From positions 44,217 to 108,216 of the forward strand of contig JAJXTV010000008.1 in NCBI GenBank assembly GCA_021783515.1: a stretch of DNA of 64,000 nt, read 5' to 3'. This stretch comes from Nitrospirota bacterium. GTDB taxonomy: Bacteria > Nitrospirota > Thermodesulfovibrionia > Thermodesulfovibrionales > UBA6898. A program made the translations under genes and the position numbers. The notes below the pieces were generated by a model. That model was given only the letters and a program-made list of their open reading frames with translations. It made no database searches and was not told the DNA's origin. The first letter of the stretch is position 1. Every line of letters starts with the position of its first letter. Shown piece by piece: positions 3,790 to 25,799 of the stretch.

Positions 3790-4868
3790 TCATCGGCGTT
3801 CCGAAGGAGATAAAGAAGGAGGAGTACCGCGTCGGCATCGTGCCGTCGGGGGTGAAAGAGCTCAGGGCCGCGGGACATACCCTCCTGATAGAGAAAGATG
3901 CGGGCGCGGGCAGCGGCTTCAGCGATGAAGAGTACCTCGATGCCGACGCCGACGTCGTCGAACAGGGCGTCCTCTTCGAAAAATCCGATCTCATCGTCAA
4001 GGTGAAGGAGCCGCTGCCCGAGGAGTACGGCCTGCTGAGGCAGGGGCAGACGGTCTTCACCTATCTTCATCTCGCCCCGAACAGGGAACTGACCCGTTTT
4101 CTCGTCGAACGAAACATCACGGCGCTCGGCTACGAAACGCTCGAAAAAGGCGGAGCGTTGCCGCTCCTTTCGCCGATGAGCGAAGTGGCCGGAAGGATGG
4201 CGCCTCTCATGGCGGTCTACTACCTGCAGATGATCCACGGCGGCACCGGCGTGCTCGCCACCGGCGTCGCCGGCGTCAGGCCGGCGAAGGCGCTCATCCT
4301 CGGCGCCGGGGTAGTCGGCAGCAACGCCGCGAGGGTCTGCATCGGTCTCGGCATGGACACGGTCGTCATCAGCAAGGGCACCGACAAGCTTCAGCGTCTC
4401 GACGAGCTCTTCATGGGAAGGATCCATACCCTGCCGGTGACCGCGCATGACGTGGGGGAAGAGGTCAGGGACGCCGACATTGTGATAGGCGGGGTGCTCG
4501 TGCCGGGAGGCAGGACGCCGGTGCTGATCCCCAGGGCGATGCTCGCCACGATGAAAAAAGGGGCGGTGATCGTCGACGTTGCCGTCGACCAGGGAGGCTG
4601 CGTGGAGACGTCGAGGCCGACCACCCACGACAATCCGGTCTACACCGTCGACGGCATCATCCACTACGCCGTCGCTAACATGCCCGGCGCATTTCCGCGG
4701 ACCTCGACGATCGCTCTTACGAACGCAACGCTGCCGTATATAAAGATGATCGCGGACCTCGGGGTCGAAAGAGCGATCGCACAAGATCCCGCCCTCAGGA
4801 GCGCGCTGAACACCCACCAGGGCAAGATCGTCCACCCCGTAGTCGCTGCGGCTTATGCCGGTCAGTAA
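3786..4868 (+). CDS. ald: Alanine dehydrogenase
   Basis: NAD-dependent oxidative deamination of L-alanine to pyruvate and ammonium (EC 1.4.1.1). The ATG at 3786 overlaps the upstream stop as ATGA and gives MIIGVPKEIKKEEYRVG, the canonical N terminus; the longer ORF-track version is not needed. Lys74 (VKVKEP) and His95 (YLHLA) correspond to the family's substrate-binding Lys and catalytic His. The Rossmann motif GAGVVGSNAA lies at about 173-182. At 360 residues it is of normal family size. It is coupled to the BaeRF-like gene and followed immediately by a palindromic repeat. Confidence 0.95.
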   Translation: MIIGVPKEIKKEEYRVGIVPSGVKELRAAGHTLLIEKDAGAGSGFSDEEYLDADADVVEQGVLFEKSDLIVKVKEPLPEEYGLLRQGQTVFTYLHLAPNRELTRFLVERNITALGYETLEKGGALPLLSPMSEVAGRMAPLMAVYYLQMIHGGTGVLATGVAGVRPAKALILGAGVVGSNAARVCIGLGMDTVVISKGTDKLQRLDELFMGRIHTLPVTAHDVGEEVRDADIVIGGVLVPGGRTPVLIPRAMLATMKKGAVIVDVAVDQGGCVETSRPTTHDNPVYTVDGIIHYAVANMPGAFPRTSTIALTNATLPYIKMIADLGVERAIAQDPALRSALNTHQGKIVHPVVAAAYAGQ

Positions 4869-11937: not shown

Positions 11938-13281
11938 CTATTTGATCCCGAATTCCTTTATCTTCGCGAAAAGCGTGGCATAGCTCATCTCGAGCATCTC
12001 GGCGGCCTTCGTCTTATTGCCTTCCGTCCTTGCAAGCGCCTCGACGATCATCTTCTTTTCGAGGTCCTTCACCGCCTCCTTCAGCGAGATGTCGCCGTAC
12101 ATGTAGCGGTCCCTCCCCCTCTGGCCCATCAGCGACTCGACGCATTCCCGCTCGATCACGTCCGTTTCGGTATGGAGCGCCGCCCTCCGCATTACGTTTT
12201 TCAGCTCCCTCAGATTGCCGGGCCATGTATACTTCGCAAGAGACGCGAGGGCGTCGGCAGAGATCTCCCTGATCTGCTTGTTCAGCTCGGAGGAGGCATC
12301 GAAGAGGAATTTGCGGGCAAAAAAGGGGATATCGTCCGCCCTCTCCCTGAGAGGCGGCAGGCAGATGATGAATTCACCGAGGCGGTAATATAAATCTTCC
12401 CTGAACTCCTTTTTCTCTACCGCATCCCTGATGTCTTTGTTCGTGGCCGCGATGATCCTCGTGTCGACGTCCAATTCGCTCGTGCCCCCCAGCGGATATA
12501 TCTTCTTCTTCTCGATAACGCTGAGGAGCTTTGCCTGCACGTGGGGCGACATATTCTCGAGTTCGTCCAGAAAGATCGTGCCGCCCTGGGCCGCCTCAAA
12601 ATAGCCCGGTTTATCCTTCTCCGCGCCGGTGAAGGCGCCTTTTTTGTATCCGAACAGCTCGCTCTCGACAAGCAGGTCAGGGATAAGGCCGATGTCTACG
12701 CTCACGAAAGGCTTGCCCGACCTCCCGCTCAGGCTGTGGACGGCCTCTGCCACCACCGATTTGCCGGTTCCGGTCTCTCCCTGGATGATCACCGAAAACT
12801 GCGTGCCCGCAACCTGCTCGATCTGCCTGATCACCGCTTTCATCGCCTCGCCCCTGCCCAGTTGGTGCTCGAGGGAAGATTTCAGCGCGTTCTGCGCCCT
12901 CTCGATCTCCTTCGATAGCCGCCGCGTCTCCAGCGCCCTCCGGAGCGTGATCACGAGTCTGCTGAAATCGGGAGGCTTCACCATGAAGTCGTAGACTCCG
13001 TTTTTCATCGCCTCGACCGCGGTCGGAATGTCGCCGTGGGCGGTGAGAATGATGATCGGGACATCGGGGGCGATCCTTCTGAACTCGCGCATCGCGTCGA
13101 CGCCGTTCATGCGGGGCATCTGAAGGTCGAGCAGCACCGCGTCGGGCGGTTCCTTTCTGAAGAGCGTGATCGCCTGCAGGCCGTCCTCCGCCTCGACGAC
13201 CGAAAAGCCCTCGTCGCCCAGCACCTCACTGACGATCCCCCTCAGGTCCTTCTCATCGTCAACAAGCAACACTCTGTCCAT
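11938..13281 (-). CDS. NtrC-family sigma-54-dependent response regulator
   Basis: 447 residues. The N-terminal receiver domain (VLLVDDEKDLR; phospho-acceptor in LLDLQMPRMNG, about residue 52) is followed by a sigma-54 AAA+ domain with Walker A GETGTGKS and the sigma-54 loop GAFTGA. Walker B is present as FLDE. A Fis-type HTH ends the protein (NKTKAAEMLEMSYATLFAKIKEFGI). It activates sigma-54 promoters when phosphorylated, presumably by the kinase encoded 22 bp upstream. It is the third gene of a binding protein-kinase-regulator operon. No target promoter is evident nearby. Confidence 0.96.
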   Translation of the reverse strand: MDRVLLVDDEKDLRGIVSEVLGDEGFSVVEAEDGLQAITLFRKEPPDAVLLDLQMPRMNGVDAMREFRRIAPDVPIIILTAHGDIPTAVEAMKNGVYDFMVKPPDFSRLVITLRRALETRRLSKEIERAQNALKSSLEHQLGRGEAMKAVIRQIEQVAGTQFSVIIQGETGTGKSVVAEAVHSLSGRSGKPFVSVDIGLIPDLLVESELFGYKKGAFTGAEKDKPGYFEAAQGGTIFLDELENMSPHVQAKLLSVIEKKKIYPLGGTSELDVDTRIIAATNKDIRDAVEKKEFREDLYYRLGEFIICLPPLRERADDIPFFARKFLFDASSELNKQIREISADALASLAKYTWPGNLRELKNVMRRAALHTETDVIERECVESLMGQRGRDRYMYGDISLKEAVKDLEKKMIVEALARTEGNKTKAAEMLEMSYATLFAKIKEFGIK

Positions 13282-13303: not shown

Positions 13304-14875
13304 CTATTCACTCTTATTTTCCATATCCGGCCCACTTTTTTCGAGCAGAGGGATATAGACCTTGAACATGGTGCCCCTTCCCGGCTCCGAATCGACCCAC
13401 ACCCAACCCCTGTGCTGCTTGACGATGCCGTAGACGATTGCAAGCCCGAGCCCCGTCCCCTTTCCGACGTCCTTCGTCGTAAAGTAAGGCTCGAATATCC
13501 GCTCCCTCGTCTTTTCGTCCATGCCCGGCCCGGTGTCGCTCACGGTAATCATCCCGTACCCCCCGGGGGTCGGCGGATACGAGCTTCGCGTTTCCTCCGG
13601 GGCAACGGACACGGTCCCGACCGTGATTGAGAGCATTCCCCCGTCAGGCATCGCGTCGCGGCCGTTCGTGCAGAGGTTCATCAGGATCTGGTCGATCTGG
13701 ACACTGTCGCTCATCACCATGACCGGTTCGTCCGATAAGCCGATACTCAGCCCCACGGCCTCCCCTGCCATGTTATCGAGCATCGGCTTGAGCCTTCTGA
13801 CGACGACGTTCAGGTCAACAGGCCGGAGTTCGAACTGGTGCGTTCTGCTGAAGGTGAGCAGTTCCCGGATCAGGTTCTGCGCCCTGCTGATCGAATCGTG
13901 CACCTGCGTCGTGTGCCTGCGCAGCTCGTCGCCCGCGCCCAGTTTTCTGTCGATCAGATAGACTGAACCCCGCAGCGTGGCGAGGATATTATTAAAGTCG
14001 TGCGCAACCCCCCTGGCGAGCGTGCCGACCGCCTCCATCTTCTGGGCGTATCTGAGTTTCGTCTCCAGTGCCTCTTTCTCCTCCTCCCGCCTCTTCAGGT
14101 TGTCCGACATGGTATTGAAGTCCATCGCAAGCCTTCCGATCTCGTCCATCGACTCCACCGGCAGCTTATCGACCGTCCCGCCCGCTCCGAGCGTTCGCAC
14201 CGACTCGGCAAGGTCGGTGAGCGGCCGCATGATCCTCTTCACCCCGATATAGATGGCGATACTTCCTGCAAGCAAAAAGAGCAGGGTAGCGAGCGCATTC
14301 CGGAGGAGGATCGCCCTCATTTCCGCCCTGAGTCCTCCCTTGTCCAGAACGACCTCGACATACCCGATGACGTTCTGCACGCCCTTCCCCTGCGTCTCCC
14401 CGAAATAAAGGGCCTCATCCATGTTCCGGTATGTTTCGAACACGACCGGAGAGAGGAACCCGATCGTATTGTCATCTTCGTCGCTCCTCGGCACGGCGCC
14501 CGCCCGCGCCAAAAACTTCTCCCCGCCTTCCGGGATCGGGGAAGCCGGTTTCCCGCCGGAGGCCCGCTTCTTCTCTACCATCAGGACCTGCCTGTCGGCG
14601 TTGTATACCACCACCGCAAGGACGTTTCTCTGTCCCATCACCCCCTGGACCGCGTCTTTCAGCATTTCCCTGTTTTCGGCAAAGACCCAGGTCCTGATGT
14701 TATAGGCGAGGATGCCGGTCAACATCGTTCCTTCTTTATTGAGGTCTTTCCTCGCCACGCCGCTCTGGTAGGAGACGAGGAAGCCTGAAAGGACGGTGGC
14801 CACCACAAGGACCGAGAGAACGAACGTCCTGAAGACCTTGAAGCCGAAGCTCTTTCTAAAGCTCCTAGTCGACAT
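13304..14875 (-). CDS. Membrane sensor histidine kinase
   Basis: 523 residues. TM1 at about 13-33 and TM2 at about 195-213 bound a periplasmic sensor region; then a HAMP domain (RIMRPLTDLAESVRTL), HisKA with the phospho-acceptor in GVAHDFNNILATLRG, and a HATPase_c with DTGPGMDE and GTGLGLAI. The ATG overlaps the end of the upstream binding-protein gene by 11 bp, indicating coupling. The AHDFNN H-box is typical of kinases that pair with NtrC-type regulators, in agreement with the next gene. The ligand is probably sensed through the partner binding protein (inference). Confidence 0.95.
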   Translation of the reverse strand: MSTRSFRKSFGFKVFRTFVLSVLVVATVLSGFLVSYQSGVARKDLNKEGTMLTGILAYNIRTWVFAENREMLKDAVQGVMGQRNVLAVVVYNADRQVLMVEKKRASGGKPASPIPEGGEKFLARAGAVPRSDEDDNTIGFLSPVVFETYRNMDEALYFGETQGKGVQNVIGYVEVVLDKGGLRAEMRAILLRNALATLLFLLAGSIAIYIGVKRIMRPLTDLAESVRTLGAGGTVDKLPVESMDEIGRLAMDFNTMSDNLKRREEEKEALETKLRYAQKMEAVGTLARGVAHDFNNILATLRGSVYLIDRKLGAGDELRRHTTQVHDSISRAQNLIRELLTFSRTHQFELRPVDLNVVVRRLKPMLDNMAGEAVGLSIGLSDEPVMVMSDSVQIDQILMNLCTNGRDAMPDGGMLSITVGTVSVAPEETRSSYPPTPGGYGMITVSDTGPGMDEKTRERIFEPYFTTKDVGKGTGLGLAIVYGIVKQHRGWVWVDSEPGRGTMFKVYIPLLEKSGPDMENKSE

Positions 14876-15767
14876 TTTCCGCCCTCTTCAGTACCTCGCC
14901 CCTTATCCTGATGCCGAGCTTGCCGGCGATCTTCCGGTTGATCACGAGGATCGCCTTTCTGACGTCTTCCCTTACCGGCGTGTCGTTATTCCCTGCAAGT
15001 ATCCTCCGGGACATCTCGCCGGCCTGGCTCCCCATCTCCCTCGGCGAGGCGTAAAGGCCCGCCGTCGCTCCGAGCTCGACATATTTTTTCGAGAAGGTGA
15101 ATACCGGCACCCTGTTCTTGAAAGAAAAGAGAAGGAGATATTTCACCGCCTCCGGATTTACGACCGTTGCGTCGGGGAGCATCCAGAAGAGGTCGACCCT
15201 GTCCTTCATGCCGTCGAGGAGGGCAGGGAAGTCTCCCGGCCGCGAGGTCTTCTTTGCGACGAGCTCGATCCCTCTGGCCTGGCAAAAGGACTCGGCCTCC
15301 TGTATCGCCGCCTCGGAATGCTTCGCGTCGTATATTACGCCGACCCTTTTCACAAACGGGAAGACCTCGATCATCGCCGAGAGGCGTTTCTGAGGAGAGA
15401 TGTACATGCTCACTCCGGATGCGGCCTGGCCGGGACCGAAGGAGATGGAACGCGGCACCATCGAATAGATCACGGGGATGCCCGGGATCTCCTTCGCCAG
15501 GTTAAGGGCGTCGAGGCCGACGGTGAAGACCGCCGACGGTCTCATCTCCCTGATCTGGGCAAAGGCTTCCCGGCCGCCGTTTTCCGAGAGCGTGATCTGT
15601 CTCAGATCGCAGCCGCAGGACTGCTCGAATCCCTCAATCGCCTCGTCGTACGGCTGGATGTCCGCGCTTTTGATGGCCACAATCATGTGCGCCTCTGAAA
15701 ACGCGGGAAAGGCGAGAAGGAAAAGCAGCGCAAGTGCTATTACTATGCGGTATGTATCTTTACGCAT
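14865..15767 (-). CDS. ABC_sub_bind-type periplasmic binding protein
   Basis: 300 residues with a signal peptide (IVIALALLFLLAFPAFSEA). The rest is the bilobed fold of the ABC substrate-binding family PF04392 (VFTVGLDALNLAKEIPGIPVIY, VGVIYDAKHSE, LFWMLPDATVVNPEAVKYLL). No transporter genes follow; instead it leads a kinase and a response regulator, so it probably serves as the sensory input of that two-component system rather than for uptake. It is the first gene of the operon; a repeat-filled gap lies upstream. Confidence 0.85.
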   Translation of the reverse strand: MRKDTYRIVIALALLFLLAFPAFSEAHMIVAIKSADIQPYDEAIEGFEQSCGCDLRQITLSENGGREAFAQIREMRPSAVFTVGLDALNLAKEIPGIPVIYSMVPRSISFGPGQAASGVSMYISPQKRLSAMIEVFPFVKRVGVIYDAKHSEAAIQEAESFCQARGIELVAKKTSRPGDFPALLDGMKDRVDLFWMLPDATVVNPEAVKYLLLFSFKNRVPVFTFSKKYVELGATAGLYASPREMGSQAGEMSRRILAGNNDTPVREDVRKAILVINRKIAGKLGIRIRGEVLKRAENVD

Positions 15768-16034: not shown

Positions 16035-17330
16035 TTAAGTCCCTGTCAGACCGTACCTGATGTCCTGCATCACGAACGCCTCGAGCGTAGCGTCGAAGAG
16101 GGCCTTCTTGCAGTCAACTCCCTCCATGGCGCCGTCGCGGACGAGCTTCATATACCTGCAGCCTCCGAAGCAGAGCGGCAGATAGGCGCAGTCGAGGCAT
16201 TTCTCGTTCTTCCAGTTATCAAGGTGATGAGAGGCGCGGCAGTCCTTCATCCCGGACCGGATGTCGCCAATCTGGTATTCTTTCCTCCCGAGAAGCCCGG
16301 GGCATTTGCAGATGCTCCCGTCGTAGTTCACCATGATATTGTCCCTGTGCTCCATCATACAGACGCCCGGACCGGTCCGCTCAAGCCTGCAGCCCCTCCT
16401 GAGTATCTCTTCTCTCAGATATACGCTCGCACCAAAAAGCCAGGGCTCATCCGCGGACATCAGCCCCTCATGAAAATCAGGCAATGCGTAATCCGCACTT
16501 TCGGCGACGACGGGAAAGAACCCCCGCATCACGACCTTCGACGGCAGAAGCCCCTCTCCGGTCAGATAATCGAGAAGCCGGGGGAACCGCCCATAGTTCT
16601 CCTTCGTGAAATTGCCTCCGGTCTGGATTTCGATCATGCCGCAGACGTCCTTGATATTCCCTATGATCCGTCTGAAGCTGCCCCTGCCTGATTTGTACGG
16701 TCTGGAGGAGTCATGGCTCTCCTCGGGCCCGTCTATCGTGACATAGGCCTCTTTCAGACCGAGCTTCTTCATCGCCTCCACGGTTTCTTTCGTCAGAAGC
16801 GTCCCGTTGGTAATGAGATAGAAGCTGAAGGGGATTCCGGCAGAGCGCGCGATCCGCTTCAGTCGCAACGCTACGAAGAGGATGAGATCCCTGCTCATGA
16901 GCGGCTCGCCTCCGTAGAAGGTGATCTGGAGCTCTTTGATCTTCGGCCGGGAGGATATCCTCTTCTTCACGAACTCTACGAAGTCGGCCGCCGCCGCCTT
17001 CGACATATAATGCCTTCCCTTCCTCGTGCCTTCGAAGCAGTACCTGCAGGCGAGGTTGCAGTCGAGGCCCATCACGAGCTTAACGCTCAGTGTCCTGTTC
17101 AGGCGGTTCAGGCCTTCGAGCCATCCGAGCATCTCTTTTCTCTCTTTTTGAGGATCGACGAGAAAGCCCCCTTTCCTGAAAAGTTCCCTGTCGCCCGCAA
17201 GGCGCGGGACGCCCTTTTTCAGGCTTGACAGTGGGATCTTGAGAATGGAGGCGTTCCTGGTGGAAAAGAGCACGAGGCCCTTCGGGTCTTCAGGATCGGG
17301 AAATGCCTTATAGTATTTCGAAAGCTGCAT
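16035..17330 (-). CDS. Radical SAM/SPASM peptide maturase, geopeptide-maturase type
   Basis: 431 residues from the ATG at 17330; the ORF track uses a TTG three codons earlier that lies in a terminator T tract. The radical SAM cluster motif is CNLACRYC (Cys91, 95, 98). The C-terminal SPASM region is Cys-rich (ICKCPG, CLDCAYLPLCFGGC, GVDCKK) and should hold auxiliary FeS clusters. The N terminus (LVLFSTRNASILKIPLSSL) and the ending (VDCKKALFDATLEAFVMQDI) match, from memory, the maturases assigned to 'geopeptide' systems in Geobacter. Such enzymes modify ribosomal peptides. The small Lys/Ala-rich gene with a Cys-Cys tail just upstream is the likely substrate, with a hairpin terminator between. 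Product unknown. Confidence 0.88.
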   Translation of the reverse strand: MQLSKYYKAFPDPEDPKGLVLFSTRNASILKIPLSSLKKGVPRLAGDRELFRKGGFLVDPQKERKEMLGWLEGLNRLNRTLSVKLVMGLDCNLACRYCFEGTRKGRHYMSKAAAADFVEFVKKRISSRPKIKELQITFYGGEPLMSRDLILFVALRLKRIARSAGIPFSFYLITNGTLLTKETVEAMKKLGLKEAYVTIDGPEESHDSSRPYKSGRGSFRRIIGNIKDVCGMIEIQTGGNFTKENYGRFPRLLDYLTGEGLLPSKVVMRGFFPVVAESADYALPDFHEGLMSADEPWLFGASVYLREEILRRGCRLERTGPGVCMMEHRDNIMVNYDGSICKCPGLLGRKEYQIGDIRSGMKDCRASHHLDNWKNEKCLDCAYLPLCFGGCRYMKLVRDGAMEGVDCKKALFDATLEAFVMQDIRYGLTGT

Positions 17331-17337
17331 CTTCAAC

Positions 17338-17364
17338 AAAAAAAGGGAGGGCAGACGCCCTCCC
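17338..17364 (-). terminator. Intrinsic terminator/attenuator between peptide and maturase genes
   Basis: On the - strand a perfect 8-bp stem GGGAGGGC / GCCCTCCC with a 4-base loop runs into seven T residues. It starts 18 bases after the peptide stop and ends 7 bases before the maturase ATG. Transcription of the maturase would need readthrough, giving far more peptide mRNA than maturase mRNA. Confidence 0.9.
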
Positions 17365-17382
17365 CATTCTTACGGCCGGAAA

Positions 17383-17649
17383 CTACCTTACAGTCATAAC
17401 CACGCCCCTGCAGCACGGTGCCGCTGTCGCCTTTCTGGTCGTCTTCTTCGCGACTTTCTTCGCGGTGGTTTTCTTTGCAGTCGTTTTCTTTGCAGTCGTT
17501 TTCTTTGCAGCGGTCTTCTTGGCCGCGGTCTTTTTCTTCGCCGCAGGCTTCTTGGCCGCAGGCTTCTTCTTCGCCGCAGGCTTCTTGGCCGCAGGCTTCT
17601 TCTTCGCCGCAGGCTTCTTCGCGGCCGCCTTCCTGATCGTCTTCTTCAT
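17383..17649 (-). CDS. Lys/Ala-rich small protein with Cys-Cys tail; candidate RiPP precursor
   Basis: 88 residues with a very strong ribosome binding site (AGGAGGAGGA). Residues 1-70 are near-perfect AAKK/PAAKK/TTAKK repeats, like histone H1-type tails. The last 15 residues break the pattern: ATAAPCCRGVVMTVR. The gene sits between a TonB receptor (53 bp upstream) and a radical SAM/SPASM maturase, separated from the latter by a terminator hairpin. I infer a precursor with a basic repetitive leader and a short Cys-Cys core. The alternative is an H1-like DNA-binding protein whose neighbour is coincidental. The repeats are also reflected in low-complexity ORFs in other frames, which are shadows. 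Confidence 0.7.
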   Translation of the reverse strand: MKKTIRKAAAKKPAAKKKPAAKKPAAKKKPAAKKPAAKKKTAAKKTAAKKTTAKKTTAKKTTAKKVAKKTTRKATAAPCCRGVVMTVR

Positions 17650-17702
17650 ATCCTCCTCCTTTGATAAGAGAGTATGCTATACCCCTGAAAGGGGCTTCCT
17701 AC

Positions 17703-19589
17703 CTAGAACTTGTACCGGACTCCCGCCTCGATCCACCGGTTCAGTCCAGGCGCCACACCATCGCTATATGACGAACCGTTGAGAATGTTATGACCGGTGA
17801 AGAAGGCCTCCAGCGAGGTGTCGTTCTTCTTCAGGATCTCCTTTATCACGTTGAAATCCATCACGAAGCCGTTATACGTCGCCGCCCAGAACGAAGGGAG
17901 GTCCCACCAGAGATAATGGCCCTTCATCACCGCCCTCAAGCCCTTGCCCTCGTCATAGGAAAGAGACGTAGTGATGCCGTATCTTCTCGTCTCGTCGAAC
18001 TCCCTCTCATCAGAGAAGTTGTCCAGCCTCACGCTCTCATAATGGGTGCCGGCCTTAAGCGTAAGGCCCTTCCATTTCTTCGTGATGATCTCGAGCTCTC
18101 CGCCTATCGTCTTTTCCTTGCCGGCGTTTTCTACTGTCAGGAGGTCCCCCTCGAGGCTCTTATCGACTATGATATCGTTGATATCGTGCAGAAACAAGGT
18201 GAGCTTCGCGCTCACGACGTTTGCGACATTCGCCTCAGCCCCCACTTGATAGGACCATATCTTCTCGGTGTTCAGGCCGGGGTTCCCGACAAAGCCGAAG
18301 CCAGGGTGATCAAAAAACGATGGGATCGCCGCATCATGGAAGCCCCTGCTCACGAGCGCCCTGAGAAGGAAATCTTTCGAAACGAGATAGGTAACTCCAA
18401 GACTGGGGCTGAAGATATCGCCTCCGAGGTTGGCATGGTCGAACCTCAGACCCGGGGTGATGGTCAGAGCTCCGAGCGATATCGTGTCGTTTGCGAAGAA
18501 GGCATATTTGTTCTGGTCTACAGACCCGTCAGGATAGAAATCAGCCTTTGCCGTTCCCGTCATCACATCCGTTCCCGCTACTATACTATGCGCCCCCGTC
18601 CTCCACGTGAGGCTGCCGCTGAAGCCGTACTTGTCGAATTTCGTGCCGGAATCGAAAATCGGCTCGTTCGTGCTGACCGTCTTCTCATACATCCCCTCAT
18701 TATTGTTAAAAATCCATCCGGAGACATTAAGGTCAAGGTCCTTGCCGAACGATGTCTGAAGGGATGCCCTTCCGTAGATCTGTTCTAACTTATACGCATC
18801 GAACGCGTCATAGTCTATGAACAGCCAGTCCCACTGGACGCTGTCGTCCTTGTGGTAGAGAAACGAGAGATCGATCTTCGTCTTTTCTCCCGCATCGACC
18901 GTGAACTTCGAAAAGAAATTGTTATGATGGAAATAATGATCGCTTCTCAGTCCGTCGGAGTTCATCGCACCGCCATAGAGATATGCGCCTATTGGCCCTT
19001 TCCTTCCGATAAGCTCGGCCCTGGCGTCGCTCGTATTTCTCTCACCGTACGATGCATAGGCGGTCCCGTGCATGTGATCTCCCGGGCCCGCCGATTTCGT
19101 GATGATGTTTATCACGCCTCCGAAAGAGGACCCCCACGTGGACGACGCAGGCCCCTTTATGATCTCGATCCTCTCTATCATTTGGACAGGCAGGATGCCG
19201 CTGGCGACTGCGTTGGATTCATTCTGAAGCGGCACGCCGTCGAGGAGGACCGCGACCCTCGCATATTCGGAGCCGTGTATGCCGATACCTCCCTGTGCGC
19301 CAGGCCCGACATTGTCCGCGACCTCGACGCCTGTCACGAAATAGAGCGCGTCGGCGACGGTATGGGCGTTCATCAGTTCGATGTCCCTTGCGGTAACGAC
19401 CTCGACGTTCTCGGCGACGCGCGAAATCGACTTGAGGCTCCTCGTCGCCGAGACGACCCGAAGCTCATCTTCCTTGAAATACATGAGGAGAAAGTTGCGT
19501 TCTTCTTCGGACATTGCAAAGGCGGCTGACGAAAGGTGAGTGAGAATGAGGACGACCAACAGAACCAGCGCGGGCCTACTGAAAGACAT
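17703..19589 (-). CDS. TonB-dependent outer-membrane receptor
   Basis: 628 residues with a signal peptide (LVLLVVLILTHLSSAAFA). An N-terminal region (FLLMYFKEDELRVVSATRS) leads into a plug domain (VADALYFVTGVEV; VAVLLDGVPL; IERIEIIKGPASSTWGSSFG; VINIITKS), then a 22-strand-type barrel ending in GVRYKF. It imports siderophores, cobalamin or other metal complexes with TonB-ExbBD energy; the substrate cannot be read. GGGAGG sits 10 bp before the ATG. The peptide gene follows after 53 bp with no terminator, so receptor, peptide and maturase may form one transcript; that makes a peptide metallophore a reasonable hypothesis. Confidence 0.93.
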   Translation of the reverse strand: MSFSRPALVLLVVLILTHLSSAAFAMSEEERNFLLMYFKEDELRVVSATRSLKSISRVAENVEVVTARDIELMNAHTVADALYFVTGVEVADNVGPGAQGGIGIHGSEYARVAVLLDGVPLQNESNAVASGILPVQMIERIEIIKGPASSTWGSSFGGVINIITKSAGPGDHMHGTAYASYGERNTSDARAELIGRKGPIGAYLYGGAMNSDGLRSDHYFHHNNFFSKFTVDAGEKTKIDLSFLYHKDDSVQWDWLFIDYDAFDAYKLEQIYGRASLQTSFGKDLDLNVSGWIFNNNEGMYEKTVSTNEPIFDSGTKFDKYGFSGSLTWRTGAHSIVAGTDVMTGTAKADFYPDGSVDQNKYAFFANDTISLGALTITPGLRFDHANLGGDIFSPSLGVTYLVSKDFLLRALVSRGFHDAAIPSFFDHPGFGFVGNPGLNTEKIWSYQVGAEANVANVVSAKLTLFLHDINDIIVDKSLEGDLLTVENAGKEKTIGGELEIITKKWKGLTLKAGTHYESVRLDNFSDEREFDETRRYGITTSLSYDEGKGLRAVMKGHYLWWDLPSFWAATYNGFVMDFNVIKEILKKNDTSLEAFFTGHNILNGSSYSDGVAPGLNRWIEAGVRYKF

Positions 19590-19742
19590 ATCGTCGAATC
19601 CTCCCGAAAGTTAGTGCGAGAATCTCTATCTGAATTTTGTTCTGTCTTTTCAATGGTCGCATTTTCAATTTTACAAAGTATATTCTAATCTAATGTCGCA
19701 TGTCCAGAAAAAAAAGATAAATAGGCGGCGACCTGTACGGCG
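19590..19742 (-). promoter_or_regulatory. AT-rich upstream region of the TonB receptor gene
   Basis: This stretch is markedly AT-richer than its surroundings. On the - strand it contains the direct repeat ATTGAAAA twice, 15 bases start to start, and -10-like A/T blocks (TAGAATATAC). It probably holds the promoter and operator of the receptor gene. I cannot identify a Fur box or name a regulator. Confidence 0.4.
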
Positions 19743-20213: not shown

Positions 20214-21646
<1,433 letters not shown>

Positions 21647-21688
21647 TCATGTGTATATTCATATGGTGAGCGGCAGACCGCCTCCATA

Positions 21689-22558
21689 TTATCCTTTCAA
21701 TGCCTCGACGCCGCCGACGATGTCCATGAGCTCTTTCGTGATCGACGCCTGTCTGGCCTTGTTGTACTGAAGTGTCAGACTGCCGATCATGTCGTTGGCC
21801 GCCCTCGTCGCGTTCTCCATCGCGGCCATTCTCGCCGCCTCTTCGGATGCCTGCGACTCAAGAAGCGCACGGAAGATCTGGATCTCGACGTTCTTCGGAA
21901 CGAGCCTGCTGAAGATCTCCTGCTTGGAGGGCTCATAGATGAAATTGTAGATCGGCAGCGTCTCCTCCGCGGCCTCTATCGGCGCAAGGGGCAGGAGCCT
22001 CGTGATCACCACCTGCTGGGCGATGGCCGACTTGAACTCGTTGAAGATCAGCACGACCTCGTCGGTCGTCTCGCTGGTGTAGTTCTCGATGATCTCCGAG
22101 GCGATCTCCTGGGCGTTGGCGTAGGAGATCTTGCCCGAAATCCCGGTCCAGGCCTTCCGCATCTCGACGTTGCGTCTTTTGTAGTAGTCGCGGGCCTTTC
22201 TTCCGACGACGTCGATCGTCACCTCATACCCTTCGCGCTTCAGCTCGTCGATGTGGCGTACCGCGGCCTTCATGATATTGGTGTTAAAGGCGCCGCAGAG
22301 CCCCCTGTCGCTCGTCATCACGAGCACCTCGATATTCCTCCGGGGCCTCACCGTCAGAAGCGGATGGATCTCTCCCTCGGCGCCGCTTGCGAGACTCGAC
22401 AGAATGCCGTTCATCCGTTCGGCGTAGGGCCTCATCTCGAGCATCCGCTGCTGCGCCTTCCTGAACTTCGCGGCCGACACCATCTTCATCGCCTTGGTGA
22501 TCTTGCTGGTGCTCTCTACCGCTTTTATTCTTCTTTTGATGTCTCTCAGTGTCGCCAT
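21689..22558 (-). CDS. atpG: F1 ATP synthase gamma subunit (central shaft)
   Basis: 289 residues beginning MATLRDIKRRIKAVESTSKITKAMKMVSAAK, the standard N-terminal coiled coil, and ending in the matching C-terminal helix (ATRAANDMIGSLTLQYNKARQA). A GAGGAG ribosome binding site precedes the ATG. It rotates within the alpha3beta3 head. The 88-bp gap to atpA upstream carries a degenerate heptamer repeat array. Confidence 0.97.
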   Translation of the reverse strand: MATLRDIKRRIKAVESTSKITKAMKMVSAAKFRKAQQRMLEMRPYAERMNGILSSLASGAEGEIHPLLTVRPRRNIEVLVMTSDRGLCGAFNTNIMKAAVRHIDELKREGYEVTIDVVGRKARDYYKRRNVEMRKAWTGISGKISYANAQEIASEIIENYTSETTDEVVLIFNEFKSAIAQQVVITRLLPLAPIEAAEETLPIYNFIYEPSKQEIFSRLVPKNVEIQIFRALLESQASEEAARMAAMENATRAANDMIGSLTLQYNKARQASITKELMDIVGGVEALKG

Positions 22559-22577
22559 ATTTCTCCTCTATCGTAAA

Positions 22578-22641
22578 GGGTGGTGCGTAACGGGTGATGA
22601 ATGGGCCTTCACGGCCTTACCCCTCACTCCTCACTCTTCAC
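22578..22641 (-). repeat. Degenerate heptamer repeat array between atpA and atpG
   Basis: Read on the - strand, GTGAAGA GTGAGGA GTGAGGG GTAAGGC form a 7-base-periodic array (22614-22641). The flanking sequence to 22578 shows weaker heptamer echoes (CGGGTGA, TGAATGG). It resembles short tandem heptanucleotide repeats known from cyanobacteria. No coding function. Confidence 0.6.
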
Positions 22642-22646
22642 TGTCT

Positions 22647-24155
<1,509 letters not shown>

Positions 24156-24159
24156 CAGA

Positions 24160-24699
24160 TCACCCCTTTATAAGCTCATCTTTTAACAGCCTAAGCTGGC
24201 CTTTTACGCTGCTGTCGTACATGGTGCTGCCGACCTTGACCAGCACCCCCCCGAGCAGGGACGGGTCGATGACGTATTCGATGTCGACCTCCCGCTCGAT
24301 CAATTTCTTCAACGAGGACTTCAGCCTCGCCTCATAGTCCTTGCCGATCTCGACCGGCGTCATGACGACCGCCTTCGCCCGCCTCATCCTTTCGAGATAG
24401 AGCGCGGTCGCGATCTTCAGGACGTCCGAAAGCGCCGCGACCACCCTGATCTCGGTAAGATGCATGACGAACTTGACCACCTTTTCGGAAAGACCCGCCT
24501 TCGCCGCGACCTGCTGAAACGCCTTCGCCCGCTCCTCGGCGGAAAAACCGGGGTTCACGAGCAGGCTCCTGAACTCCGCGCTCTTCTGCATCAGGTTATC
24601 GACCACGCCGAGCTCCACAAGGGCCTTCGGCATCTCCTCGACGCCCACCACGCTCATGAATGTCTTTGCGTATTTCTTTGCCTGTTTTACCGGTTTCAA
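24160..24699 (-). CDS. atpH: F1 ATP synthase delta subunit
   Basis: 179 residues. An N-terminal helical bundle ([13 protein letters not shown]) and the C-terminal OSCP/delta signature ([32 protein letters not shown], residues shown in part) are clear. Its ATG overlaps the atpF stop (ATGA). Delta fixes the peripheral b/b' stalk to the top of F1. Confidence 0.95.
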
Positions 24700-25307
24700 T
24701 TTTTGCCCTCTATCTTTGCGACGGATTCCTCGAGCAGCTTCATCTGCTCTTCCCTGGTCATTTTCTCCCGCAGCTTCTTCTCGGCGAGTTCCATCGCGAG
24801 TTCGGCCGCCTCTTTCTTGATCGCCGACTTCGCCTGCTTCACCTCGAAGTCGATGTTCGTCTTCGCCTGCTCGAGGATCTTGTCCTGCAGTTTGGCGCCT
24901 TCTTCCACCAGCCTCGCCTTTTCCTTCTCGCCGGACATCCTCGCGGCGGAGATCAGCTCATCCATCTCCTTGTCCTTCACCCGAAGCCTCTCTTCCACCT
25001 GCGAAAGCGCCTTCTGTGCAAGCTCCTTCGCCTCGCGCGCCTCCTTCAGGCTCTGCTCGATCAGCTCGGTCCTCTTCTTGAAATATCCCTTGAGGTCCGC
25101 CTTCCTTATCGCGTAGACGAGGAGGACTACCAGGACAAAAAAGTTTATGACCGGCCAGAAATAAGCCTTAAAGAGAGACACCTGCTCCTCCCCGCCCTCC
25201 TGAGCGAAGGCGACGGCGGCGAAAAGGAGAATTTGAAGCGCAATAAGGAGCGGAGTGAAGAGCGCCGAACCTTGAACTTTGGACCTTAAACCTTGAACTT
25301 TCTTCAT
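24696..25307 (-). CDS. atpF: F0 ATP synthase subunit b, with a repeat-derived N terminus
   Basis: 203 residues. Residues 1-13 (MKKVQGLRSKVQG) are encoded by a heptamer DNA repeat. A hydrophobic leader (LLIALQILLFAAVAFAQ) and the membrane segment (PVINFFVLVVLLVYAIRKA) precede a long Lys/Glu-rich coiled coil that dimerises with b'. b subunits with an extra leader-like segment are known in related groups; the repeat in front of it looks like a later intrusion. An internal in-frame start would remove it, but I see none with a good ribosome binding site. Overlaps the b' gene by 4 bp. Confidence 0.9.
   Translation of the reverse strand: MKKVQGLRSKVQGSALFTPLLIALQILLFAAVAFAQEGGEEQVSLFKAYFWPVINFFVLVVLLVYAIRKADLKGYFKKRTELIEQSLKEAREAKELAQKALSQVEERLRVKDKEMDELISAARMSGEKEKARLVEEGAKLQDKILEQAKTNIDFEVKQAKSAIKKEAAELAMELAEKKLREKMTREEQMKLLEESVAKIEGKN
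25267..25301 (-). repeat. Heptamer array inside the atpF start region
   Basis: On the - strand AAGTTCA AGGTTTA AGGTCCA AAGTTCA AGGTTCG form five consecutive seven-base units. Three units make 21 bases, so in translation the repeat appears with a 7-residue period (KVQG...KVQG). Confidence 0.75.
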
Positions 25308-25726
25308 GCCTTTACCAACTTCCTGACTATCTCGTCCGAGAATTTCTCAACATCGGCCCTGAGCGCCTGCCTCGCCCTGGCGACTTCGGCCTGCAACTCT
25401 TCCCTCGCCTTCTGCAGCATCGCCCCGGCCTTCGTCTCGGCGTCGGTGAGGGCCTGTTTCTGCGCATTGAGGCCTTCGTTTCTCATCGACTCGAAGGCGT
25501 CCTTCGCCTTCTTTCTCGCCTCGCCGAGATCCTTGTTCATCTGGGCGATGCCCTCTTCCTTCTTCGCGTCCATCTCCCTTGCGGCGCTGAGCGCGCCCTT
25601 GGTGGAATCTTCTCTTTCCTTGAAGATCTTCAGGAGGGGCTTGTAGAGGATGATATTGAGGACAAACATGAGAACGAGGAAATTAGCTGCCAAAATCAGG
25701 AGCCAGTTAATGTGTATGTCAAGCAT
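25304..25726 (-). CDS. F0 ATP synthase subunit b' (second b-type stalk)
   Basis: 140 residues from the ATG at 25726, which has AGAGGAGA just upstream; the ORF-track start is 18 codons earlier and lacks one. The single N-terminal membrane helix (WLLILAANFLVLMFVLNIILY) is followed by the conserved PLLKIFKERE turn and a charged coiled coil. Presence of both b' and b implies a heterodimeric peripheral stalk. First gene of the operon, behind a strong promoter. Subunits a and c (atpB, atpE) and atpI are not here and must be encoded elsewhere. Confidence 0.93.
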   Translation of the reverse strand: MLDIHINWLLILAANFLVLMFVLNIILYKPLLKIFKEREDSTKGALSAAREMDAKKEEGIAQMNKDLGEARKKAKDAFESMRNEGLNAQKQALTDAETKAGAMLQKAREELQAEVARARQALRADVEKFSDEIVRKLVKA

Positions 25727-25770
25727 CTTATCTCCTCTTGGAATGAGATTTTTTGCCTTGAAACTCACGA

Positions 25771-25799
25771 AGATTAGCATAGGGCCAAAAGTTTGTCAA
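25771..25799 (-). promoter_or_regulatory. Sigma-70 promoter of the atp operon
   Basis: On the - strand a perfect -35 TTGACA (25794-25799) is separated by 17 bases from TAATCT (25771-25776), which is preceded by TGC as in extended -10 elements. The predicted leader to the b' ATG is about 40 bases. Confidence 0.72.

Follow-up and report, generated by a model that had tools for sequence, protein, structure and literature searches.

What does a radical S-adenosylmethionine (SAM) enzyme act on, and to what end, when its gene lies beside a TonB-dependent receptor and a short protein that resembles a histone? The question is raised by a locus on contig JAJXTV010000008.1 of a Nitrospirota bacterium (assembly GCA_021783515.1, positions 44,217 to 108,216), a stretch of 64,000 nucleotides referred to here as the window. 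An initial annotation described three co-directional genes between 16035 and 19589, for a receptor, an 88-residue peptide and a maturase. All three were found on the minus strand as described, but the system does not end there and continues down to 11938. The core system stands, but the conserved module of binding protein and histidine kinase encoded downstream was missing from that account, and it changes the most likely function. We propose that the locus is a geopeptide-type operon for a ribosomally synthesised and post-translationally modified peptide (RiPP), coupled to a receiver module, and that the cell secretes the peptide, takes it up again through the TonB receptor and senses it. We put the probability of this reading at roughly 0.55; gene content, linkage, the conserved peptide core and the predicted enzyme fold form its established part.

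The maturase gene (16035..17330, minus strand) most likely encodes 431 amino acids (aa). Its end at 16035 was placed correctly, but its start is more likely the ATG at 17330 (MQLSKYYKAF), whose counterpart opens the homologues, than the TTG at 17339. The product had been likened to SPASM-domain geopeptide maturases, and its match to NCBIfam TIGR04280, the maturase model of the geopeptide system, bears this out (509.7 bits against a cut-off of 400, residues 4-429 aligning to profile positions 1-427 of 428). This match identifies it as a geopeptide maturase. Each of the ten iron-sulfur cysteines expected, from the CxxxCxxC motif and the seven-cysteine SPASM pattern, is invariant among 44 homologues (C91/95/98, C324-G338-C343 with its glycine, C378xxC381x5C387x3C391 and C407). 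The AlphaFold model has a mean pLDDT of 94.4 and begins with a domain of three strands (7-12, 15-23 and 29-33) followed by three helices to residue 77. As modelled, this winged-helix arrangement is of the RiPP recognition element (RRE) type; a Pfam search gave no match for the domain, so the RRE assignment is a structural one.

The best solved-structure match was CteB both by fold (5why) and by sequence (5wgg, 5.2e-18), at a low identity of 20%. In CteB, a SCIFF maturase that forms thioethers, the RRE binds the leader (PMC8326336), and CteB shares with the window enzyme the N-terminal RRE and the C-terminal SPASM fold. The next-best NCBIfam matches were other cysteine-directed maturases (TIGR04463, CefB and PapB). 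From this kinship to maturases of the CteB, PapB and CefB type, a cysteine-based radical crosslink would be the likeliest chemistry. SCIFF precursors carry spaced cysteine-rich repeats, whereas the window precursor has two adjacent cysteines, and the outer-membrane receptor module is a feature of the window system, unlike the SCIFF/ranthipeptide systems. Ranthipeptides derived from SCIFF have been reported in quorum sensing in Clostridia, according to the title of a reference in PMC8326336. A tblastn search of plasmids and a search of viral contigs returned distant radical SAM proteins only, and a search of genome contigs returned one relative.

TIGR04280 matches were taken from 53 of 396 Nitrospirota genomes and their flanks were read; what follows on conservation applies to this phylum (loci are given as L numbers). 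In the window, the precursor gene (17383..17649, minus strand) encodes 88 aa, a Lys/Ala-rich repeat leader of 78 aa followed by the core or tail CCRGVVMTVR, ending in ATAAPCCRGVVMTVR. Its strong ribosome binding site (AAAGGAGGAGGAT-ATG), the Lys/Ala repeats and the Cys-Cys ending (APCCRGVVMTVR) were all found as had been described. Of the 51 usable loci, 42 have a small open reading frame (ORF) with a Cys-Cys tail whose end lies no more than 260 bp upstream of the maturase. Such ORFs occurred in 62 of 2454 control windows on the same strand (2.5%) and in 96 of 2561 on the opposite strand (3.7%). A closer look at the nine exceptions revealed two displaced peptides (L079, beside its receptor, and L077, at -825), one assembly gap, two loci without a peptide and four distant maturases below the cut-off. 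The gap, in L002, is a run of N (3938-3999) lying exactly over the precursor, with the Cys-Cys tail SMACCPGTSKIRSTG readable beyond it. The two loci without a precursor, L055 and L078, have a readable upstream region and also lack the receptor and the binding protein. Two tandem precursors lie upstream of the maturase in L052, with a common leader and cores that have diverged around CCAGAFP, an arrangement typical of RiPP precursors. The sister species L073 carries a precursor of the same type as the window's.

It had been suggested that a Lys/Ala-rich ORF with a Cys-Cys tail, together with a TonB receptor, might recur beside homologous maturases. The tail does recur, in 47 loci, and the receptor stands beside the maturase in 46 of 47 loci with adequate flank; the Lys/Ala leader does not, being confined to 11 loci in three clades. 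The Cys-Cys pair lies 7-14 residues from the C-terminus, mostly 8-9, and its two cysteines are the sole invariant columns in an alignment of 43 precursors, in which the other positions diverge and the residues after the pair vary widely between loci. A typical precursor has about 30 aa, with the leader consensus I-x-V-L-D-K-G (IVVLDKG...CC...) and a variable position towards its end (I-x-V-L-D-x-G). These short Nitrospirota precursors share leader and Cys-Cys pattern with the geopeptide precursor model TIGR04229, which they match weakly in 14 of 43 cases (best 3.8e-5); in a six-frame search of the 396 genomes no match reached its cut-off. The window precursor itself has no match to TIGR04229 (cut-off 30 bits). 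It belongs to the same kind of system by synteny and tail, yet is not a member of that family. Judged by its small size, conserved core and recurrence, it is a geopeptide precursor in a functional sense.

Could the Lys/Ala ORF instead be an ordinary nucleoid protein, H1-like or HC2-like, and unrelated to the maturase? It does match such models weakly (HC2, 31.8 bits against a cut-off of 40; NF038053, 27.7 against 80). However, all H1 and HC2 matches fall below cut-off and end at residue 76, short of the Cys-Cys tail, and no second copy exists in the source genome. Moreover, in eleven loci such an ORF stands where the precursor of a TIGR04280 maturase is expected, and remnants of the standard leader survive in intermediate forms (L066, L068 and L070). 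We regard this explanation as highly improbable. The remnants were assessed by scoring each precursor with a profile of the short leader against 100 shuffles in which the tail was kept. L066 and L068 matched better than 100/100 shuffles, and shuffles scored as well in 1/100 cases for L043 and for L048, 3/100 for L070 and 6/100 for L046. In the window precursor no relic was detectable by this comparison (18/100 shuffles scored equally). On the maturase tree the Lys/Ala leaders fall into the clade of the window's family, L045/L046 and L043/L048, and require three changes, of which at least two are forced by well-supported branches. By this tree the Lys/Ala leader is derived, and it evolved on at least two occasions. 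The window tract contains repeats of a 33-bp DNA unit with 91% matches, and the simplest reading is that a basic leader segment expanded while the original motif eroded. Within short-leader systems the charge of the leader and that of the maturase N-domain were anticorrelated (rho -0.71; phylogenetic contrasts r -0.56, p 0.009). This comparison was exploratory and one of several, and charge co-evolution was rejected as a general rule, the Lys/Ala systems breaking it.

The peptide and enzyme genes are separated by a GC-rich hairpin with a T-run (17344..17365, minus strand), a probable partial terminator or attenuator. It reads GGGGAGGGC-GTCT-GCCCTCCCT followed by T6, from 17365 to 17344, has a z of -2.25 against dinucleotide shuffles and ranks first among the terminator-like sites of the region. 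Almost every homologous locus has an equivalent hairpin; among 44 tested, the median z against mononucleotide shuffles was -4.2, and 41 scored z < -2. The hairpin that the initial annotation had noted ahead of the maturase is therefore real, and its recurrence supports the proposed layout in which the precursor is expressed at a high level and the enzyme at a low one.

The remaining genes suggest what the peptide is for. The receptor gene (17703..19589, minus strand) encodes 628 aa with a plug and a beta-barrel (PF07715 4.5e-20, PF00593 3.9e-28), the nearest solved receptors being those for enterobactin and B12, both distant. The idea of a dedicated receptor is upheld by its recurrence, and the source genome has only two full-length close relatives of it, both in geopeptide loci. 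Downstream of the maturase lie genes for a periplasmic solute-binding protein (PF04392, TrpX-like; 14865..15767, minus strand; Pfam 8.2e-27, Sec-type signal) and a membrane histidine kinase (13304..14875, minus strand; weak sCache_4, HAMP, HisKA, HATPase_c), which overlap by 11 bp. No ABC (ATP-binding cassette) permease or ATPase gene lies beside the window binding protein. Across the 34 loci with adequate flank for these genes the binding protein is present in 29 and adjacent to the kinase in 27. The pair sits downstream in some loci and divergently upstream in others, which means that linkage to a receiver does not hinge on a single gene order. An NtrC-type response regulator follows in the window (11938..13281, minus strand; receiver, sigma-54 AAA and Fis HTH domains), and in 10 geopeptide loci the module has a GAFTGA-type regulator as its neighbour. 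No other neighbours are widely shared across the loci. The next commonest is a half-size major facilitator superfamily (MFS) protein, a possible exporter of about 185-192 aa corresponding to the N-terminal half of PF07690, directly after the maturase in L040 (C12), L041, L049, L053, L052, L078 and L090. The second geopeptide locus of the source genome (C12) encodes a precursor of 33 aa, MVKEEIEVLDGGIDLTVVGPMGACCGAALIPIK, along with a receptor, binding protein and kinase of its own. Of the three PF04392 proteins of this genome two belong to these two loci, as do its only two close receptors; the third PF04392 protein adjoins a probable beta-barrel protein elsewhere.

From these parts the following sequence of events can be drawn. 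The RRE-like domain of the maturase would bind the precursor leader, and the enzyme would modify the Cys-Cys core, most probably by a cysteine-based radical crosslink. Housekeeping proteases and exporters might then strip the leader and secrete a short C-terminal peptide, which the TonB receptor would bring back to the periplasm. There the permease-less binding protein could capture the peptide and present it to the histidine kinase, with the sigma-54-type regulator presumably adjusting transcription. This would tie geopeptides, through a TonB receptor and a kinase coupled to a binding protein, to a concrete function, in which one and the same cell makes a peptide, releases it, takes it back and senses it.

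A secreted antimicrobial, with the neighbouring receptor serving self-recognition or being incidental, is the first of two alternatives for the mature peptide. Many radical SAM RiPPs are antimicrobials, and the tails here differ between species. Yet no immunity gene is conserved across the loci, a receptor, binding protein and kinase next to the producing genes point to reception, and the source genome holds two different geopeptide loci, so that we consider an antimicrobial role improbable. The main rival is a metallophore, in which the modified Cys-Cys peptide would bind a metal outside the cell and be re-imported by the TonB receptor, the binding protein and kinase sensing the loaded form or the metal status. 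It holds this place because methanobactin, also a RiPP, is taken up through the TonB receptor MbnT and the periplasmic MbnE, a relative of OppA/AppA (PMC7558416). That system resembles the present one in combining a RiPP precursor, a TonB receptor and a periplasmic binding protein, and differs in the modification enzyme, the regulator and, with respect to the main group of loci, the family of the binding protein. Vicinal cysteines are good ligands for soft metals. On the other hand, the binding protein has no conserved neighbour that could serve as an inner-membrane uptake transporter, and the loci share no metal-related gene, since receptor, binding protein and kinase are their only widespread neighbours. 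The residues past the Cys-Cys pair also vary widely, unlike a fixed chelate. We consider a metallophore rather unlikely on balance, and such a role could also be combined with sensing. A gene with an N-terminal CPMHPEI motif of metal-binding type, like that of copper-type P-ATPases, was noted by eye a few kb away in L082 and L083, in this lineage only.

Distant maturases (220-305 bits to TIGR04280) mostly lack a Cys-Cys peptide. Directly downstream of seven of them (L087, L089, L086, L091, L093, L095 and L096) is an unannotated ORF of 23-25 aa, for example MKIIKKGEKKVKSTPVHCTFLIG and MKLQIVKKGERKIKSKPSFCGWYAR. All seven ORFs place their one cysteine exactly five residues from the end, and they have an I-x-K-K-G leader that recalls geopeptides. 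These ORFs are, from their sequence and position, a probable sister RiPP family. The next gene encodes an oligopeptide-type binding protein, SBP_bac_5, followed in most cases by a probable kinase, and a TonB receptor lies upstream in three loci of the group (L087, L089 and L092). That a different family of binding protein takes the same place suggests that its ligand is tied to the peptide. SBP_bac_5 proteins are OppA-like, and MbnE is itself a relative of OppA, which lends the metallophore some weight.

Relatives of the receptor are also encoded by genomes in which no TIGR04280 match passed the threshold applied. Four of these (L214, L215, L217 and L219) have the receptor, the PF04392 binding protein and the kinase together, with neither a Cys-Cys peptide nor a maturase, although the absence of peptide and maturase is uncertain in what are mostly draft genomes. 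Since the three genes occur together without a maturase, they form a unit. Such genomes may be eavesdropping or scavenging, or may sense a different ligand; as scavengers of a public good they would also suit a metallophore.

Several observations weigh against the proposal that the peptide is released, recaptured and sensed. The existence of receptor modules without a maturase may indicate that the module responds to something other than the peptide, and the annotations of the nearest characterised PF04392 relatives read tryptophan or uncharacterised, not peptides. The window locus has no dedicated exporter or protease, in agreement with the initial annotation, and the half-size MFS protein follows the maturase in 7 loci only. 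No sigma-54 promoter was found in a scan before the window peptide. Elsewhere such a site lies upstream of the peptide in L042 and L084 only (2/47 loci against 0.1 expected), with a further match seen by eye in L002. As the site is rare across the loci and missing from the window, we do not claim autoinduction by the regulator. Ligand, modification and secretion, finally, are predictions. More tentatively still, the peptide might be a Gram-negative RiPP autoinducer read through a TonB receptor and a binding protein/kinase pair, with receptor-only genomes as eavesdroppers and the leader rebuilt in some lineages as a Lys/Ala tract that resembles a histone and serves a second role; we hold this broader picture to be possible, if somewhat doubtful.

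In the open-access literature no paper was found that names geopeptides or TIGR04280, and none that combines a radical SAM enzyme, a TonB-dependent receptor, a RiPP and SPASM; the function of geopeptides thus appears to be undescribed. The geopeptide models include neither a Lys/Ala leader nor a linkage to receptor, binding protein and kinase, both of which are features of the loci described here. Three features are apparently new, namely the receiver module, the variant with a Lys/Ala leader and the sister precursors with a single cysteine. The latter two widen the known diversity of precursors, from an 88-aa form whose histone-like leader appears derived from one of about 20 aa to a sister family of 23-25 aa. 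Sequence annotation would miss both because the Lys/Ala form looks like a nucleoid protein and the sister form is too short.

Just upstream of the TonB receptor gene is a candidate sigma-70-type promoter, TGGACA-18-TATACT (19677..19706, minus strand), with 10/12 consensus matches. It is a weak candidate, since such sites in the region are as numerous as expected from shuffles. On the ATP-synthase side a terminator-like hairpin lies at 19770-19751. The geopeptide operon directly follows an F-type ATP synthase cluster (window 20279-25780), as it does in several relatives.

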